A DNA stretch of 64,000 nucleotides from Thermosediminibacterales bacterium (GCA_029982205.1 JARRCM010000007.1:1-64000), one strand, 5' to 3'; positions 8,436-29,591 are shown, counted from the first letter of the stretch. Made by a program: numbers and translations. The notes: generated from the sequence alone by a model not told the origin.

Positions 8436-9842
8436 CTAACTTTTTCGGAAAAATATTTTTTCAAGGGAAGTCCGTATCTTTGAAAAATCATTTATATTCA
8501 TTGTCCTGACATCAAAAACCATACAGTCATCAGAAATCCTTGTGATAATTGGAATATCAAGCTCTCTTAACATTTGGTCTAATTCAGTAACCGTAAACTT
8601 TATAGGTTTTAAAATTACTGCTTTGGTAGGTAATTTTTCGACAGGGTATGCGCCGCCTCCAACCATAGAAAACTCAGAAACTATTTCGATTTTTGCATGT
8701 AAAGGCGTAAAAATTTCAAGTTCTTTGAAAAGAAGTTTTGCCTTTTCTTCAAGCTTACTCAATGGAGCTGTTAACATCTTTAACACTGGTATTTTTTCTA
8801 CAGCTTTGTTTTCATCTAAATATAACCTCAATGTAAACTCTAAAGCTGCTAAAGTCATCTTATCGATTCTTAAAGCCCGGTTTAGCGGATGTTTTTTAAT
8901 AACCTCTATATACTCTTTTTTTCCTAAAACAATTCCTGCCTGAGGCCCTCCTAAAAGCTTATCACCGCTGAAAGTCACAACATCAACTCCTGCCTTAACA
9001 CTTTCGATAACTGTAGGCTCCTTGGTTAAGCCGTATTTTGAAAAATCAATCATACTTCCACTTCCCAGATCTTCAATCACCGGAATCTTGTATTTTTTCC
9101 CAAGACTAACAAGTTCTCGGCTTTCTACCACTTTAGTAAAACCGCAAATTTTATAATTGCTTGTGTGAACTTTCAGCAGTGCTCCAGTGTTTTCGTTTAT
9201 AAAATTCTCATAATCTTTTAAATGTGTCCTGTTTGTGGTTCCCACTTCTACTAACCTGGCACCGCTCTGTGCCATTACCTCGGGAATTCTAAAAGAACCC
9301 CCGATTTCTACAAGCTGGCCTCGAGAAATAATAACTTCCCTGCCTGAAGCCAGTGCAGAAAGCACCAGAAGCACTGCACCGGCATTGTTATTAACCACAA
9401 GAGCTGCTTCAGCCCCGGTCAAATCACACAGAAGAGATTCTACGTGACTGTAACGGCTGCCGCGAGTTCCTGTAGTAAGGTCAATTTCAAGGTTTGAATA
9501 GTTGCTTACAACGTCCCAAAAACGTTCTTTAATTTCAGCAGAGAGAGGCGCCCTGCCGAGATTGGTATGTAACACAGTGCCAGTTGCGTTAATAACCCTT
9601 TTAAAACTATTGCTCCATTTCTTCGTTATCAGTCTTTCAACATCAAGAACTATAATGTTTTCCTCAACAGAAAATCCATTATCCCCGGCAATTAATATTT
9701 TATTGCGATAAGTATCTATGGTTTCTCTGATACAGTCTGTTATTATTTTTCGGGGTATATCTTTGTATTTCTGTTTTTTCATTATAATATTAAAGATCCT
9801 GTCTACTCCCGGGAGTTTTCTAAACAACTCGTTCTTCTTCAT
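8436..9842 (-). CDS. selA: L-seryl-tRNA(Sec) selenium transferase
   Basis: RVINATGTVLHTNLGRAPLS, VVNNNAGAVLLVLSAL, TFSGDKLLGGPQAGIVLG (PLP lysine); start refined to MKKNELFRKLPGVD at 9842. Confidence 0.97.
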   Translation of the reverse strand: MKKNELFRKLPGVDRIFNIIMKKQKYKDIPRKIITDCIRETIDTYRNKILIAGDNGFSVEENIIVLDVERLITKKWSNSFKRVINATGTVLHTNLGRAPLSAEIKERFWDVVSNYSNLEIDLTTGTRGSRYSHVESLLCDLTGAEAALVVNNNAGAVLLVLSALASGREVIISRGQLVEIGGSFRIPEVMAQSGARLVEVGTTNRTHLKDYENFINENTGALLKVHTSNYKICGFTKVVESRELVSLGKKYKIPVIEDLGSGSMIDFSKYGLTKEPTVIESVKAGVDVVTFSGDKLLGGPQAGIVLGKKEYIEVIKKHPLNRALRIDKMTLAALEFTLRLYLDENKAVEKIPVLKMLTAPLSKLEEKAKLLFKELEIFTPLHAKIEIVSEFSMVGGGAYPVEKLPTKAVILKPIKFTVTELDQMLRELDIPIITRISDDCMVFDVRTMNINDFSKIRTSLEKIFFRKS

Positions 9843-14254: not shown

Positions 14255-14279
14255 CCCTCTTCCCTATTAGGGACGAGAG
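14255..14279 (-). terminator. T-box-associated intrinsic terminator
   Basis: Minus strand CTCtcgTCCCTaatAGGGAagaGGG followed by TTTTTTT; overlaps the 3' arm of the antiterminator. Confidence 0.85.
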
Positions 14280-14309
14280 TCCTCGTGGTACCACCCTAAT
14301 TGGTAAAAA

Positions 14310-14385
<76 letters not shown>

Positions 14386-14543
14386 ACGTTTTTACCCACT
14401 CTAGTGCACTATAACGGGTGCTGCCGAGTCAGCAATTGAGGCGAGTTCGATGGTGTTACCTGCTGATTCGCACCTACCATCAGCTCTCTGAAAGGTTTTT
14501 CACCAATCTACTACTCCTCATATACCTTTATGGGATATATCAT

Positions 14544-20547: not shown

Positions 20548-22688
<2,141 letters not shown>

Positions 22689-23439: not shown

Positions 23440-23751
23440 CTAAGCATGAATCTTTTCAATCTGAATCTTTGTATAAGGCTGTCTGTGACCCTGTTTTCTC
23501 CGGTAGTTCTTTTTGGGTTTGTACTTAAAAACAATAATCTTTTTACCTTTACCCTGTTCCAAAACCTTTGCAGTAACTTTTGCACCTTCAACAACCGGAG
23601 TCCCTACTTTAAATTCTTTGTCGTCATGAACGGCCAAAACCTTATCAAACTCAATTATTTCTCCTTCTGAAACCGGTAACTTTTCTACTCTTAACACATC
23701 ACCTTCAGAAACACGGTACTGCTTTCCACCAGTTTCTATAACAGCAAACAT
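23440..23751 (-). CDS. rplU: 50S ribosomal protein L21
   Basis: [25 protein letters not shown]... [25 protein letters not shown]. Confidence 0.97.
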
Positions 23752-23764
23752 GCAAACACCTCCT

Positions 23765-23850
23765 CAATCCAGTCTCGCCGGAGTACAGGTAGCAAAAGCT
23801 TTACAAACCTGCTCCGTGCGGCCCCAAGCGGCTGCAACCGCCTAAAATAT
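23765..23850 (-). promoter_or_regulatory. Putative L21 (rplU) ribosomal protein leader
   Basis: Structured leader on minus strand, GCGGTTGCAGCCGC and GGAGCAGGTTTGTAAAGCTTTTGCTACCTGTACTCC hairpins directly upstream of rplU. Confidence 0.6.
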
Positions 23851-23877
23851 TTTAGCATATAAAACTATGGGTGTCAA
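23849..23877 (-). promoter_or_regulatory. Sigma-A promoter for rplU-prp-rpmA
   Basis: Minus strand TTGACA - 17 nt - TAAAAT. Confidence 0.7.
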
Positions 23878-23959
23878 ACAAAATAAAGAACACTTGAAGT
23901 AACAATATTTTCTATATTCCATATTATATTATTAGAAAATCTTTTAAGGAGGGATTAGA

Positions 23960-24049
23960 ATGGGATGGTTTGGAGGAGGTATTGGTTACAACTATGATTT
24001 GCTTTTGATTGTATTTTTGATTCTTATTCTTATAATCATTATTAACTAG
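23960..24049 (+). CDS. 29-aa glycine/hydrophobic membrane micropeptide (YjcZ-like class)
   Basis: aaggaggg RBS; MGWFGGGIGYNYDLLLIVFLILILIIIIN*; followed by strong terminator. Confidence 0.75.
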   Translation: MGWFGGGIGYNYDLLLIVFLILILIIIIN

Positions 24050-24061
24050 TTATATAAGGCC

Positions 24062-24093
24062 AAAAAGATAACGGTAACAACCGTTATCTTTTT
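24062..24093. terminator. Bidirectional terminator
   Basis: aaaaagataacggt-aaca-accgttatcttttt 14-bp stem. Confidence 0.85.
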
Positions 24094-24096
24094 AAT

Positions 24097-24453
24097 TTAA
24101 TATGGTGGAATTCTCCAAACCAATCTTGTTAAAGGTTTTGAAGAATAATCCTTGTAATGCCGGTCTGTTTCTTTATGTTTCTTCTTTTGTTTTTCAAAAT
24201 AGTTTATTGGAGTTTTCATGGTTTCAGTGTTATCTTTTTCTGTTTCTTCTTTATTCTCTTCTTCATTATTTTGAGAGATTTCTTTTTCTTTTAAAATCTG
24301 TTGACTGATTTTGTGATTATTGGCCAGGACGCTTGAAACTCCCAGCAGGTTACAAAACGCCATAAGGGTTATAATATTCTCCATTTTCGCAGTTTCAATC
24401 CCATTCAATTTTTTGAGCATATCTTCTAAAAGCATATGCACTCCTTTTTCCAT
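24097..24453 (-). CDS. Small hypothetical protein (CNLLG motif family)
   Basis: MEKGVHMLLEDMLKKLNGIETAKMENIITLMAFCNLLGVSSVLANN...; shares the CNLLG segment with 26512..26910 and a C-terminal LVWRIPPY with 26950..27240. Confidence 0.65.
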   Translation of the reverse strand: MEKGVHMLLEDMLKKLNGIETAKMENIITLMAFCNLLGVSSVLANNHKISQQILKEKEISQNNEEENKEETEKDNTETMKTPINYFEKQKKKHKETDRHYKDYSSKPLTRLVWRIPPY

Positions 24454-24564
24454 TTACTGCCCCCCTTTTTTTGTTTTATTATATTTATATTCCAGCTCAA
24501 TAACATTAACACTTAAATATCATTTTAATAATCCTCATCATACAACAAAACATCATATTCACCA

Positions 24565-24609
24565 TTATTCTACTCCTGACATAGAAGGCTTAGGAAGCAA
24601 AGGGGGCAT
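24565..24609 (-). CDS. Possible 14-aa micropeptide MPPLLPKPSMSGVE
   Basis: ATG preceded by taggaggatagca directly after the stop of the upstream Met-rich gene. Confidence 0.3.
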   Translation of the reverse strand: MPPLLPKPSMSGVE

Positions 24610-24619
24610 TGCTATCCTC

Positions 24620-24823
24620 CTATCTTTCTATCATTTTCTCGTACATCTCTTCAATCATTCGGTGGTTACTCATTATCACATGATGCATTTCCATTATCAT
24701 CCGATACATTTCATATTCCATCATGTAGCCTGGTACCATCCCCATCATAGGACCCATGGGCATCATATTACCCATATGAGAGCCGGGCATCGATCCTGGC
24801 ATCATAGACCCTGGATACATCAT
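24620..24823 (-). CDS. Met/Gly/Pro-rich small protein (spore-coat-like)
   Basis: aaaaggaggtg RBS; MMYPGSMMPGSMPGSHMGNMMPMGPMMGMVPGYMMEYEMYRMIMEMHHVIMSNHRMIEEMYEKMIER. Confidence 0.7.
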   Translation of the reverse strand: MMYPGSMMPGSMPGSHMGNMMPMGPMMGMVPGYMMEYEMYRMIMEMHHVIMSNHRMIEEMYEKMIER

Positions 24824-24979
24824 TAAGTTTTCACCTCCTTTTCAATAACATGATATGAATCATTCTTATGAAAAGTTAATGGATCTGAATACTCTTTTTA
24901 GTTAATAATTTGCAAAATCAATCACCTAATTTGCTGAAACATCATAAAATAAACCAGAAAACCGAAAGGAGGGAAATCA

Positions 24980-25066
24980 ATGGGCGGCATTGGTGGCTTC
25001 TTTGGGAATCAAGCAGTTTTTGCTATATTCCTAATTCTCATTCTGTTAATTTTGAGTGATGGCTAA
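24980..25066 (+). CDS. 28-aa membrane micropeptide, paralogue 2
   Basis: aaaggaggg RBS; MGGIGGFFGNQAVFAIFLILILLILSDG*. Confidence 0.8.
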   Translation: MGGIGGFFGNQAVFAIFLILILLILSDG

Positions 25067-25072
25067 GAACCG

Positions 25073-25100
25073 AGGGTTTCACATTTTTGTGAAACCCTTC
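25073..25100 (+). terminator. Intrinsic terminator (gggtttcacat repeat copy 1)
   Basis: gagggtttcacatttttgtgaaacccttc followed by a T-rich tract. Confidence 0.75.
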
Positions 25101-25197
25101 TAATTTTTTTATCTTTATTTAATATTAACCATTTTCGATTATATAACATAGTATATATTAGACCACAGTTAAAAGATATTAAAAGGAGGGAATTTAA

Positions 25198-25287
25198 ATG
25201 CCTGATGGATTGGGCGGATTCTTCGGAAATAAAATGGTGTTTGCTTTGTTCTTGATTCTAATTCTGTTGCTTTTAAGCGATGACTAA
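25198..25287 (+). CDS. 29-aa membrane micropeptide, paralogue 3
   Basis: aaaaggaggg RBS; MPDGLGGFFGNKMVFALFLILILLLLSDD*. Confidence 0.8.
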   Translation: MPDGLGGFFGNKMVFALFLILILLLLSDD

Positions 25288-25331
25288 AGAAAACAATTTA
25301 CTTTAACAGTATTGAAAGGAGGGAGACAAGA

Positions 25332-25409
25332 ATGGGAGGAATTTATAATCAACGTTTGGTGTTCGCACTGTTCTTGATCCTCATCCTGCTGCTCTTGGCT
25401 GATGAATAG
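25332..25409 (+). CDS. 25-aa membrane micropeptide, paralogue 4
   Basis: aaaggaggg RBS; MGGIYNQRLVFALFLILILLLLADE*. Confidence 0.8.
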   Translation: MGGIYNQRLVFALFLILILLLLADE

Positions 25410-25422
25410 AATACAGCCTCGG

Positions 25423-25453
25423 GTTTCACATTAAATGTGAAACCCTTTTTTAT
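25423..25453 (+). terminator. Intrinsic terminator (gggtttcacat repeat copy 2)
   Basis: gggtttcacattaaatgtgaaaccctttttta. Confidence 0.85.
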
Positions 25454-25533
25454 AAATAATTATTTTATCACATAATTATGCTTTTTACATATAATAAACT
25501 AGATTAGTTTAAAAAAGGAAGGAGGTTATTCCT

Positions 25534-25746
25534 TTGAAAAAGAAAATCAATTTTTCTGAATTGAATAATCTTATAGAAGACCTTTCAAAAAATTCACAGG
25601 AAGAAAATGAATCTGTTGATGATATCAATGAACCTTCAACCCGTGAAGAATGTTCACCTCCAAAAGCAAACCCGTATATTCTTTTTCTAATTTTTATTCT
25701 TCTTCTCTTAACAACAGGCAGTTTAAGTAAGAAGAAAAAGAAATAG
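25534..25746 (+). CDS. Small protein with acidic N-terminus and C-terminal TM segment
   Basis: gaaggaggtt RBS; C-terminus NPYILFLIFILLLLTTGSLSKKKKK resembles the micropeptide TM core. Confidence 0.75.
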   Translation: MKKKINFSELNNLIEDLSKNSQEENESVDDINEPSTREECSPPKANPYILFLIFILLLLTTGSLSKKKKK

Positions 25747-25825
25747 TCGAGTTTTATTAACATATCACATCAAATGTTCCAAAAACATATTATGTATTAA
25801 ATAAATTAGGGGAGGAGGGATTGTA

Positions 25826-26050
25826 TTGTTTAGAATACCAATTGATGATGACAGCCGAAATCTTGTTTTAGCTTTAAAACCCTTTTTGGGAACTTCCCAG
25901 CAGAGGTCTATCGATATTATGATAGGATTTTTAGACATATTTAGACCCCAGGGGGATGAAAAAATCAACACAGAAGCTCTAATTAAACTTTTAGATATGC
26001 TTGAGGAAATAAAAACCCCTATGCCAAGTCCGGTAGATGATGATAACTGA
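25826..26050 (+). CDS. Small hypothetical protein
   Basis: ggaggagg RBS; MFRIPIDDDSRNLVLALKPFLGTSQQRSIDIMIGFLDIFRPQGDEKINTEALIKLLDMLEEIK. Confidence 0.75.
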   Translation: MFRIPIDDDSRNLVLALKPFLGTSQQRSIDIMIGFLDIFRPQGDEKINTEALIKLLDMLEEIKTPMPSPVDDDN

Positions 26051-26057
26051 TAAATTT

Positions 26058-26082
26058 ACGGGCTGTCTTAAGGCAAGCCCGT
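26058..26082 (+). terminator. Intrinsic terminator
   Basis: acgggct...agcccgt then aaaattttttt. Confidence 0.75.
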
Positions 26083-26180
26083 TAAAATTTTTTTGGAAAC
26101 TCTACGATTAATAGATATTAAAACAAAAAGTTTGAATATATATTATTATAGGTTTTATATATCTTACAGGAGGTGTTTCA

Positions 26181-26495
26181 ATGTTTGATGAATTTGAGAA
26201 CTTAGTTAATAACATGAAAGGTGAACTTGCTGAGTTACAAAACCAATTAAGAAAACAGACTGTAGAAGTTACGGATAAAAATAAGATTATTAAAGTTAAG
26301 GTAAACGGACTACAGGAAATCTATGGCACTGAAATCGACCCCGGAATACTAAAAAAAGAAAATCAGTTTCTCATTGAAAAAGCAGTTACTGAAGTAATTC
26401 GTGAAGTTTTCCGACAGTCAAAAAACCTGCTCAAAGAACAACTAAGCAAAATGACTGCCGGTATAGATTTTCCTGATTTTCCAAAACTATTTTAA
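26181..26495 (+). CDS. YbaB/EbfC family paralogue
   Basis: FENLVNNMKGELAELQNQLRKQTVEVTDKNKIIKVKVNGLQEIYGTEIDPGILKKEN.LIEKAVTEVIREVFRQSKNLLKEQLSKMTAGIDFPDF matches the YbaB architecture. Confidence 0.8.
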   Translation: MFDEFENLVNNMKGELAELQNQLRKQTVEVTDKNKIIKVKVNGLQEIYGTEIDPGILKKENQFLIEKAVTEVIREVFRQSKNLLKEQLSKMTAGIDFPDFPKLF

Positions 26496-26511
26496 AAGGT
26501 GGGGTTCTTTT

Positions 26512-26910
26512 ATGAATAATGAAAATGAAGTAAGAATCGAAAACAGTGGATACAGTCTCCTTGATGCAGTCATCGGATATTTGAACTGCCAACGGGACCA
26601 GAACATTGATTCAAATACCTTAATAAGCCTATTAACATTATGCAATCTTTTAGGAATAGTAAACTTTTTAAACACTCAAACGGATTCCAACTTTTTTGCC
26701 GGAGGCTTACAAAAAACCAAATCTAACGATAAACAAGCCCTGATCAATAAACTCATGACCCTTCTAAGCGGCTCGGGAGATGATTCGAAATTAAACCCTC
26801 AAACCATTTTAAGTTTAATGAAAGTTCTAAACAAAGCCCAAAGCGAAAGCAACGACACTGAAAAAAACATTAGAGACAGAAATCAAAAAAGGGATGAAAA
26901 ATCTTCATAA
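26512..26910 (+). CDS. Small hypothetical protein (CNLLG motif family)
   Basis: Overlapping context with the ybaB-like gene; LISLLTLCNLLGIVNFLN parallels the 24097..24453 product. Confidence 0.75.
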   Translation: MNNENEVRIENSGYSLLDAVIGYLNCQRDQNIDSNTLISLLTLCNLLGIVNFLNTQTDSNFFAGGLQKTKSNDKQALINKLMTLLSGSGDDSKLNPQTILSLMKVLNKAQSESNDTEKNIRDRNQKRDEKSS

Positions 26911-26914
26911 TCAC

Positions 26915-26935
26915 GGGCTGGACTACAGCCAGCCC
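26915..26935 (+). promoter_or_regulatory. Stable intergenic hairpin (no T-run)
   Basis: gggctgg-actacag-ccagccc. Confidence 0.5.
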
Positions 26936-26967
26936 ATCAAGATTCTTATGTGGAGGTGTATGTTATT

Positions 26968-27240
26968 ATGCCGTGGCCTTACAAATGGCGAAAGCCTTTT
27001 CCAGCAAAACTGAAACCAACATCGAAACATGTAGAAACTGAAAACCCTGATTTAAAAATTAACCGCGGACCCAAAAAAGAAAGCATACTTAACAACAAGT
27101 CAAAAAATGATGAAAATAAACCACAAGAAAAAAAAACAAAAATGAAACATCCTGATGAAAATATACAAACTCAGCCTTACCAGAGGCAATCGAAAACTCG
27201 AATCAAAAAACCATTAGTTTGGAAGTTTCCTAATAGGTAA
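26968..27240 (+). CDS. Lys/Pro-rich basic small protein
   Basis: Start likely MPWPYKWRKPFPAKLK within ORF 26950..27240; ends KKPLVWKFPNR. Confidence 0.65.
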   Translation: MPWPYKWRKPFPAKLKPTSKHVETENPDLKINRGPKKESILNNKSKNDENKPQEKKTKMKHPDENIQTQPYQRQSKTRIKKPLVWKFPNR

Positions 27241-27263
27241 ATATAGAGAGGAGACTAATAATC

Positions 27264-27659
27264 ATGTGGTTTGATTCTAATATAAGCAGCCCCTACCAGT
27301 GGCTAATGTATAACAATCCTTTTAACCAACGTCTTCAAATGGGCTGGTTTCAAGACTTTGCAGTGTATTATCTTGATTTAGGTGAAGTGCCCTGTGAAAG
27401 CAGTTGTTTATCCACAAATCCTGTTTATATATTCATTCATGGATTCAACAGTGAAGGAATTCCCCTGGTTGTAGAAAACCAGAACAACCTGCTAACTTCT
27501 ATACCTATTCAGAAACATTATTCACCTTTCTGTAACGCTGTCTTTGTTGAGGTACCGATGGACTATATCCCAAACAGTGTTCGTTCTGAAGAACAATTAA
27601 AAGAAAGCGGATATATATTAACAAAATCCGATCTTGTGTTACTGTATCCTGTATTATAA
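27264..27659 (+). CDS. Hypothetical protein, possibly spore-associated
   Basis: agaggaga RBS; MWFDSNISSPYQWLMYNNPFNQRLQMGWFQDFAVYYLDLGEVPCESSC...; no family recognised. Confidence 0.75.
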   Translation: MWFDSNISSPYQWLMYNNPFNQRLQMGWFQDFAVYYLDLGEVPCESSCLSTNPVYIFIHGFNSEGIPLVVENQNNLLTSIPIQKHYSPFCNAVFVEVPMDYIPNSVRSEEQLKESGYILTKSDLVLLYPVL

Positions 27660-27685
27660 AAACCATCGAGTTAACAGATGGTTTT
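27659..27685. terminator. Bidirectional terminator between convergent gene sets
   Basis: aaaaccatc-gagttaaca-gatggtttt. Confidence 0.75.
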
Positions 27686-27690
27686 ACTTT

Positions 27691-29052
27691 TTACAGCGTG
27701 ATTGTGCCAGAAGGCGATTCTATAACCTGCAAAATGGTTTCTTCATCACCTGTAGCGGCATTGATGTAAATTAAATACTTTTCATTGTTGAATTTAACCT
27801 TAACTTCATAACAGAATATCTCTTTTTTACTTGGTGAAGGTATGACCGCCTTTCGAATGCGTTCAATTTTCAGCTCATCTTTTATACGTTTCCTAACCTC
27901 TTCTTCACTGAGCTTGGGAGGTGGAAGATTTCTAGCTCTATGAGAAAAAAGATAACCCTGGGAATCAAAAGCTATTACTTCCCCATTGTCTAAAGCCACA
28001 CTTACCTTAATAAAATCCGGGTATATTATAACTCCATCCTGCTTGTGTGCAAAAGTTACGGTTATTACATCCCCTTCCCTCAAAGAACCTGTTGCAACCA
28101 TTTGCTTGTAATTTCGAGAACTTATAAAATTCTCCGCCTTTTCTATGGCGTCTTTTAAAGTGATTTTGGGTTGATTAATACCACGGGGATTTATATACCA
28201 AATAACATGCCCGCCTTTTTTTGAGATATCCAATAAAATGTTTTCATCACCAGCAGCCCCCGGTGGTTTAATAATAAAAGAATATGCCGGAATTGAACCA
28301 TTCACATCCCCTTTGAATACTATAGAATAGTCAATACCCCTCGGGTTATCTATAAATCTTTCTGCTTTATCCCTGGCTTCTTCCCTGGATACTAAATCGC
28401 CTGTCACCCCCATAGGTTTAACCTGTTCTACATGGTCTGAAAAAGGGCCATCATAAACAAGAGTAGGGGCTTCATCTTTCAAGCGTTCGTCTATTTTAAA
28501 CATAAGTTCACCCATAGGCTCCGGTGTTGTCTTTGAGATCTTTTGTTTTATTCCTGTTTTATCCATATTTCCCCAGCTTATTCTTCCACTTGCAATCCTG
28601 TTTTGAAGTTCATGAAGCTCTCTGTTTAGTTTTCTGGTTTGGTTTCTTAATTCCAACAGTTTATCCCAATCTTTTTTATCTATTGTCTTTCCTTCAACAT
28701 TCTGTTTTGCCAATGTATATGCAAAGTCACCAATCTGGGCAAAATACTTTTGACTTTGCTGTAGTTTCAATCCTACAGGAATCTGATCAATGCTTGCCCT
28801 TGCGTTTTCAGCTTCATGCCATATGGAAGTCAATGTAATAATGTTCCCTTTAGGTGCTGAAGACACAAGGCTTTTGCTTAACAGAACGTCCAGGTTTTCA
28901 ACATGTTTAACCAAATCAAAGAAAGAACGTTGATATTCGGCTTCTAAAGCATTCTGCATATAACTGATACGATTGTAATAATTCCAAGCGCCTAGAAGAG
29001 CTGCCCCTAATAGAACTGCCAATACGAAATAGGTTATCTTTTTTTTCTTCAT
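27691..29052 (-). CDS. ypeB: Germination protein YpeB
   Basis: YYNRISYMQNALEAEYQRSFFDLVKHVENLDVLLSKSLVSSAPKGNIITLTSIWHEAENARASIDQIPVG; PepSY-like C-terminus; next to sleB. Confidence 0.94.
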   Translation of the reverse strand: MKKKKITYFVLAVLLGAALLGAWNYYNRISYMQNALEAEYQRSFFDLVKHVENLDVLLSKSLVSSAPKGNIITLTSIWHEAENARASIDQIPVGLKLQQSQKYFAQIGDFAYTLAKQNVEGKTIDKKDWDKLLELRNQTRKLNRELHELQNRIASGRISWGNMDKTGIKQKISKTTPEPMGELMFKIDERLKDEAPTLVYDGPFSDHVEQVKPMGVTGDLVSREEARDKAERFIDNPRGIDYSIVFKGDVNGSIPAYSFIIKPPGAAGDENILLDISKKGGHVIWYINPRGINQPKITLKDAIEKAENFISSRNYKQMVATGSLREGDVITVTFAHKQDGVIIYPDFIKVSVALDNGEVIAFDSQGYLFSHRARNLPPPKLSEEEVRKRIKDELKIERIRKAVIPSPSKKEIFCYEVKVKFNNEKYLIYINAATGDEETILQVIESPSGTITL

Positions 29053-29063
29053 CTTTTCCCTCC

Positions 29064-29591
29064 TCAAATACCAAATACATGTCTGCCTATACGCTGGACT
29101 ATCTTGCGGGACCATATCCACTTGCTGACTTTTTTAAAAGGATTCCAGAAAAACAGGCTGCCGTAAGTGGGATCCCAACCGTTCAAAGCAGCTCGAGCCG
29201 CCCGAATGTTTTCAGCAGAAGGGCGTTTCGCCCAGATCTGACCATTACTCACAGACTCAAATGCATGAGGTTGATAAATAACCCCTGCCACTGTCGCCGG
29301 AAACTTTGGGCTTCTGACCCTGTTTAGTATTACTGCTGCCACTGCAACCTGTCCCTGATACGGCTCACCTCTTGCCTCTCCCGAAACAAGCCTTGCCAAA
29401 AGCCAGAGGTCATCACTTGAGGGATAACCAACTTCAGGCGAATACACTTCGCCAGTTTCCCCTTTATTTTCAAATTCCTGTAAAGAGATTTCTTTGTTAT
29501 GGTTGTACATTACTATTATTGTAATTATTAAAGATAAACTTATGATTATAATTGAATATAATATACCTCTTTTTTGTCTGTTACCTGTCAA
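29064..29591 (-). CDS. sleB: Spore cortex-lytic enzyme / cell wall hydrolase SleB
   Basis: DDLWLLARLVSGEARGEPYQGQVAVAAVILNRVRSPKFPATVAGVIYQPHAFESVSNGQIW. Confidence 0.95.
   Translation of the reverse strand: MTGNRQKRGILYSIIIISLSLIITIIVMYNHNKEISLQEFENKGETGEVYSPEVGYPSSDDLWLLARLVSGEARGEPYQGQVAVAAVILNRVRSPKFPATVAGVIYQPHAFESVSNGQIWAKRPSAENIRAARAALNGWDPTYGSLFFWNPFKKVSKWIWSRKIVQRIGRHVFGI

Follow-up and report, generated by a model that had tools for sequence, protein, structure and literature searches.

A conserved cluster of small genes next to sleB-ypeB is a candidate late mother-cell sporulation locus

INTRODUCTION

Bacillus has tiny sporulation membrane peptides of the YjcZ/SscA type, which we take to be the families PF09680 and TIGR01732. 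In anaerobic thermophilic spore formers, little is known about the proteins of coat and envelope, because coat families of Bacillus seldom extend to these organisms and micropeptides are often left unannotated; one study on M. thermoacetica lists proteins that had been picked by homology. Here, we describe an island of small genes, orfA to orfL, that lies next to the cortex-lysis operon sleB-ypeB in DNA of a Thermosediminibacterales bacterium (GCA_029982205.1, JARRCM010000007.1:1-64000; this whole stretch of 64,000 nucleotides is referred to as the window). Judged from its sequence, the island is rather likely a conserved late mother-cell SigK sporulation locus for small structural and assembly proteins of the outer spore envelope.

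In C. difficile, SigE and SigK promoters have the -10 box in common and are told apart by the -35 element, which reads ATA in the case of SigE and AC in that of SigK; an AC -35 element with a CATA -10 box is the SigK signature, and the P2 promoter of sigK has AC with CATATAAT (PMC3789822). In the same study, sleB is listed within the SigF regulon (PMC3789822). The YbaB family, to which one of the island proteins belongs, is described in one report as a family of DNA-binding nucleoid proteins (PMC9610160). Deletion of espL, which encodes a YbaB-type protein in the Mycobacterium ESX-1 locus, affects almost no transcript, and EspL stabilizes neighboring proteins (PMC6319747).

RESULTS

The cluster is conserved beside sleB-ypeB

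The island spans about 3.7 kb, with rplU on one side and ypeB-sleB on the other. As noted in a preliminary description of the window, it is mostly plus-strand and consists of about a dozen small open reading frames (ORFs): we count 12, of which 10 are on the plus strand (orfA and orfD to orfL) and 2 on the minus strand (orfB and orfC). Nearly all of them have a strong Shine-Dalgarno sequence; orfG and orfH start with TTG. Protein-level conservation in other genomes was found for the products of orfB, orfD to orfJ and orfL. Synteny was compared across genomes of the class and of a phylum sample. The G-H-(I)-J set, together with micropeptides, was found at sleB-ypeB in 22 of the 26 class genomes (manual count), and orfJ, the island member with the widest distribution, in 24. 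The usual order in the class is rplU, B or a micropeptide, ypeB, sleB, the divergent genes G-H-(micropeptide)-(I)-J, micropeptides and rng; in the genome from which the window comes, the block is found on the opposite side of ypeB-sleB. A search with the J alignment gave 17 named loci, from the genera Tepidanaerobacter, Thermosediminibacter, Fervidicola and Thermovorax.

The set also recurs in distant lineages. Outside the class, the complete G-H-I-J order was found at sleB-ypeB in L182 and L190 to L194, and I and J occurred together without sleB-ypeB in L177, L178, L180, L181, L185 and L189. In genome G002, the J-I-G group still adjoins rng, and sleB-ypeB is located elsewhere. In G027, the set is split in two loci: sleB-ypeB is accompanied by a C-like ORF and orfL, and the second locus has J, G, I and micropeptides together with another C-like ORF and one that is B-like. 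Altogether, J was present in 51 of the 299 genomes of the phylum sample. A search of the open-access literature for this gene cluster found nothing.

The cluster co-occurs with sporulation genes

SpoIVA was found in 24 of the 26 class genomes. One genome, G018, is 99% complete and belongs to Tepidanaerobacter, as do G009 and G012; it has no SpoIVA, YpeB, J or micropeptide, and neither SigK nor Spo0A was above the cut-off. In G018, rplU follows the ribonuclease gene (rng) by about 110 bp, and therefore the whole block of sleB-ypeB and module has been lost. This is one clear case of co-loss of the cluster with sporulation genes, and G018 is the one asporogenous relative that was checked for the block: island genes are found in spore formers and are absent from G018. 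All 46 J-positive genomes that are at least 90% complete have SpoIVA, versus a background of 229 of 266 (without ancestry correction). The two J-positive genomes that lack SpoIVA have a completeness of 61% and 75%. In the assembly that contains the window, which is 86% complete, Spo0A was not above the cut-off, and of SigK only a C-terminal fragment was detected (G000:C28:6025-6270); an interruption of sigK or a contig end that cuts it may be the reason.

Six island genes have SigK-type promoters

The pattern AC-N15-17-CATANNNT ends 26 to 43 nucleotides upstream of orfA, orfC, orfD, orfE, orfG and orfH, in each case on the correct strand. Such promoters precede 6 of the 12 island genes and only 1 of the 56 other genes in the window (Fisher P = 5e-5). 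They are located at positions 23902 to 23927 (plus; orfA, AC-N16-CATATTAT), 24850 to 24876 (minus; orfC), 24924 to 24950 (plus; orfD), 25128 to 25154 (plus; orfE-orfF), 25470 to 25495 (plus; orfG, CATATAAT) and 25767 to 25793 (plus; orfH). Those of orfE-orfF and orfG are kept in relatives: for the micropeptides, the promoter conservation is striking (GTAACC-N16-CATATANTATA), and a CATANNNT box precedes 21 of 22 orfG genes. Since the AC -35 element marks SigK in C. difficile, where the -10 box does not separate SigE from SigK, the best assignment for these putative promoters is SigK, acting late in the mother cell. The motif was also found upstream of a gene for a SipL/SPOCS-domain protein in three class genomes.

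By sequence, sleB-ypeB is a transcription unit separate from the island and has a different promoter class. Upstream of sleB in relatives, GAATA-N14-20-AAACTA is conserved, which is a forespore-like signature; it precedes sleB in 14 loci, and its single other occurrence is in front of a spo0B-like ORF. Given the different promoter classes, expression of the cluster and of the cortex-lysis operon probably takes place in different cells.

Most products match no Pfam or NCBIfam family

It had been stated that most of the ORFs lack a recognizable family, and indeed, scans of all 12 against Pfam and NCBIfam gave no match except for orfI. For G, H, J and L, the relatives scanned likewise had no convincing match in these databases, and no island ORF matched a mobile-element or phage family.

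The micropeptides encoded by orfD (24980 to 25066, plus; 28 amino acids, with a membrane span), orfE (25198 to 25287, plus; 29 amino acids) and orfF (25332 to 25409, plus; 25 amino acids) form one family with the core FAxFLILILLxxxD. Weak similarity to this family is seen in the product of orfA (23960 to 24049, plus), a micropeptide of 29 amino acids with a Gly-rich head and a hydrophobic span. The product of orfG (25534 to 25746, plus; 70 amino acids) has a charged head followed by an NPY-type span, LFLIFILLLL, that resembles the span of the micropeptides. orfH (25826 to 26050, plus) encodes a 74-amino-acid protein of the KPFL / KIN.EAL family, and orfJ (26512 to 26910, plus) a CNLLG protein of 132 amino acids with the motif LLxLxNLLGIxxFLN. 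An AlphaFold model of OrfJ is all-helical and of low confidence (mean predicted local distance difference test score [pLDDT], 61; predicted template modeling score [pTM], 0.28); a structure search with it was dropped because the model was too weak.

The minus-strand orfB (24097 to 24453) encodes 118 amino acids with a hydrophobic helix, a charged linker and a C-terminal LVWxxP tail, and was aligned with relatives located between rplU and ypeB. The product of orfK (26968 to 27240, plus; 90 amino acids) is basic, ends with LVWKFPNR and has only the C-terminal LVWKFP motif in common with family B. The product of orfC (24620 to 24823, minus; 67 amino acids) is Met/Gly/Pro-rich with a Met-rich tail; weakly scoring relatives of like layout were found in L077, L179 and L182, and C-like ORFs adjoin the module in G027 and G160. 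orfL (27264 to 27659, plus; 131 amino acids; PNSVRS / PVL family) has two distant relatives, in L077 and L182, with 44% identity, both near sleB.

orfI encodes a YbaB paralogue

The product of orfI (26181 to 26495, plus; 104 amino acids) belongs to the YbaB/EbfC superfamily (PF02575, 56.7 bits versus a gathering threshold of 25.5, residues 10 to 95) and is below the cut-off of the housekeeping equivalog (TIGR00103, 37.1 versus 49.45 bits). Unlike the housekeeping copies, it has no GGG motif; its net charge is similar to that of other YbaB copies. A second, housekeeping-like copy is encoded in the same genome, on contig C40. In a partly resolved YbaB tree, the module copies cluster (4 changes versus a mean of 17.8 after shuffling) but are not one clade. 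A scan of the genome contigs with orfI alone found no relatives, and nothing on a sporulation YbaB paralogue was found in the open-access literature searched.

Homologues of orfI are absent from many modules that retain G, H and J, and orfI is therefore considered accessory. Where both occur, I and J are adjacent in most loci (exceptions, L179, L184 and L188), which is why we regard OrfI as a putative partner of OrfJ. In L189 (G141), tandem YbaB-like genes (9146 to 9448 and 9462 to 9761) directly follow a J-like gene; the stretch fetched there does not contain sleB-ypeB.

Layout of the island and neighboring genes

The left edge of the island is a divergent promoter region (about 23859 to 23959) next to rplU (23440 to 23751, minus). 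Two bidirectional terminators had been proposed to bound the island. The left one (24062 to 24093) was recovered in a terminator scan, but it is inside the island, between the convergent orfA and orfB. The right one stood as a short inverted repeat (about 27660 to 27690) between the convergent orfL and ypeB, seen by eye and not among the elements listed by the scan. Additional plus-strand terminators follow orfD (25072 to 25099) and orfF (25421 to 25445), which indicates several transcription units in the island.

The genes flanking the island encode L27, Prp, L21, YpeB, SleB and a ribonuclease of the Rne/Rng family. As described before, sleB-ypeB adjoins the island and a spo0B-like gene is nearby, for which a profile match to the SPOB_a domain was obtained (21894 to 22688). 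ypeB (27691 to 29055, minus) matched TIGR02889 with 404 bits (cut-off, 303.6). sleB (29064 to 29591, minus) matched TIGR02869 with 189.7 bits (cut-off, 236.5); the score falls short because the match is confined to the C-terminal part, the second half of the model. A short SleB of about 160 to 170 amino acids is usual at this locus in the class, compared with about 230 at other loci. The window's genome also encodes a second YpeB paralogue (L090; G000:C30:99713-101044), which comes with a fragment of sleB at the end of a contig and beside which no small-gene cluster was found; G001 likewise has two YpeB copies.

Apart from the island, a sub-threshold match to the L21 leader (26.9 bits; gathering threshold, 36) was observed upstream of rplU (23761 to 23821, minus). 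A T-box leader (107.9 bits; 14266 to 14527, minus) precedes leuS, the gene for leucyl-tRNA synthetase. It contains, unusually, a complete tRNA-Ala(GGC) gene on the same strand (14310 to 14385), enclosed in the loop of a GGUAAAA/UUUUACC helix that immediately precedes the antiterminator.

DISCUSSION

The spore-related role of the island had been a guess from proximity and now gains independent support from synteny, the co-loss in G018, the co-occurrence with SpoIVA and the SigK-type promoters. Of the two functions that had been suggested, a structural one appears to fit better and germination worse, because the cluster has putative late mother-cell promoters and sleB a forespore-type promoter and because G, I, J and micropeptides also occur, in several genomes, with no sleB-ypeB next to them. 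Under the control of SigK, the island would be switched on late in the mother cell and would supply small structural or assembly proteins to the coat or to the zone where the coat meets the outer forespore membrane. The micropeptides and OrfG could each span the membrane once, on the side of the forespore that faces the mother cell; OrfC could be a Met/Gly/Pro-rich structural protein, OrfH and OrfJ small helical assembly proteins, and the YbaB-fold protein OrfI the partner or chaperone of OrfJ; OrfB and OrfK may dock through their C-terminal LVWxFP tails. Since sleB-ypeB has its own forespore-type promoter, the island products and SleB/YpeB would meet only in the developing spore.

Several observations weigh against this assignment. 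The envelope location is suggested by promoter type and composition only, and the -10 box is common to SigE and SigK. Genome-wide, the bare promoter pattern is no commoner than its control, and therefore, no regulon is claimed from it. G003 has SpoIVA, YpeB and SigK and yet lacks both J and any micropeptide match, J is absent from most SpoIVA-positive genomes of the phylum, and I is missing from many modules. Because G003 and most SpoIVA-positive genomes are without J, the cluster is placed outside the general sporulation core.

The small proteins could instead act with SleB/YpeB in germination, for example by keeping the cortex-lytic enzyme inactive or by placing it. We rank this explanation second because the neighborhood persists, in 22 of 26 class genomes and in several distant families, and cluster and operon were lost jointly in G018. 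However, most genomes with sleB-ypeB have no cluster, I-J is found without the operon in the six loci named above and J-I-G apart from it in G002, and the forespore-like signature at sleB in relatives contrasts with the mother-cell type at the cluster. A germination function is thus unlikely, and the island is probably not a SleB/YpeB operon. Ranked third, and less probable again, is a mother-cell unit of nucleoid organization or gene regulation, in which the YbaB paralogue would bind mother-cell DNA late and the other products would assist. OrfI clearly belongs to a family that is described as DNA-binding (PMC9610160), but many modules keep G, H and J without I, the other members are membrane micropeptides and low-complexity proteins of no DNA-binding family, and deletion of the YbaB-type EspL touches almost no gene, its role being to stabilize partners (PMC6319747). 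Since EspL stabilizes its neighbors with almost no change in transcripts, it is a precedent for a partner-type role of OrfI. That the island is a chance cluster of spurious short ORFs or the remnant of a mobile element might be thought from the tiny ORFs, the strand switch and the near absence of database matches; it is hardly credible given the gene order and protein sequences kept across families, the strong ribosome-binding sites, the conserved promoters and the lack of any match to a mobile-element or phage family. For the core genes, conservation rules out such an origin.

More tentatively, the locus could represent a system for spore-envelope assembly that has so far gone undescribed; it would have membrane micropeptides of its own, a helical OrfH/OrfJ core and a YbaB-fold partner of OrfJ recruited from the nucleoid, and would be conserved beyond the class in a subset of spore-forming Firmicutes. 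The data suggest that a YbaB-fold protein has been reused in sporulation. The locus provides defined candidate genes in culturable Tepidanaerobacter, Thermosediminibacter, Thermovorax and Fervidicola, G018 is a natural knockout within the genus Tepidanaerobacter, and the island promoters indicate when and in which cell to look.

How does the island compare with known systems? The micropeptides are like the YjcZ/SscA-type peptides in their length of 25 to 30 amino acids, Gly-rich head, single hydrophobic span, occurrence in several copies and sporulation setting. Their core FAxFLILILLxxxD is distinct, and OrfD, OrfE and OrfF gave no Pfam/NCBIfam match to the YjcZ/SscA models at E values up to 5, profile scans being weak for 25-amino-acid proteins. 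With the cortex-lysis operon sleB-ypeB, the island shares its location and its loss in G018; it differs in that the operon is on the opposite strand, is its own unit and has a forespore-type promoter in relatives. EspL, too, is a YbaB-type domain protein encoded within a small-protein cluster, but it belongs to another pathway, and we liken it to OrfI by description. With the SigK-regulon coat genes of Clostridia, the island shares the tie to sporulation and a promoter of the AC -35 and CATA -10 kind (PMC3789822), here AC with CATANNNT at the correct spacing; it differs in that no homology to named coat proteins was found in Pfam/NCBIfam. Late mother-cell clusters of small spore proteins are already a known kind of locus; the families of this island and their arrangement are new to Pfam, NCBIfam and the open papers searched.

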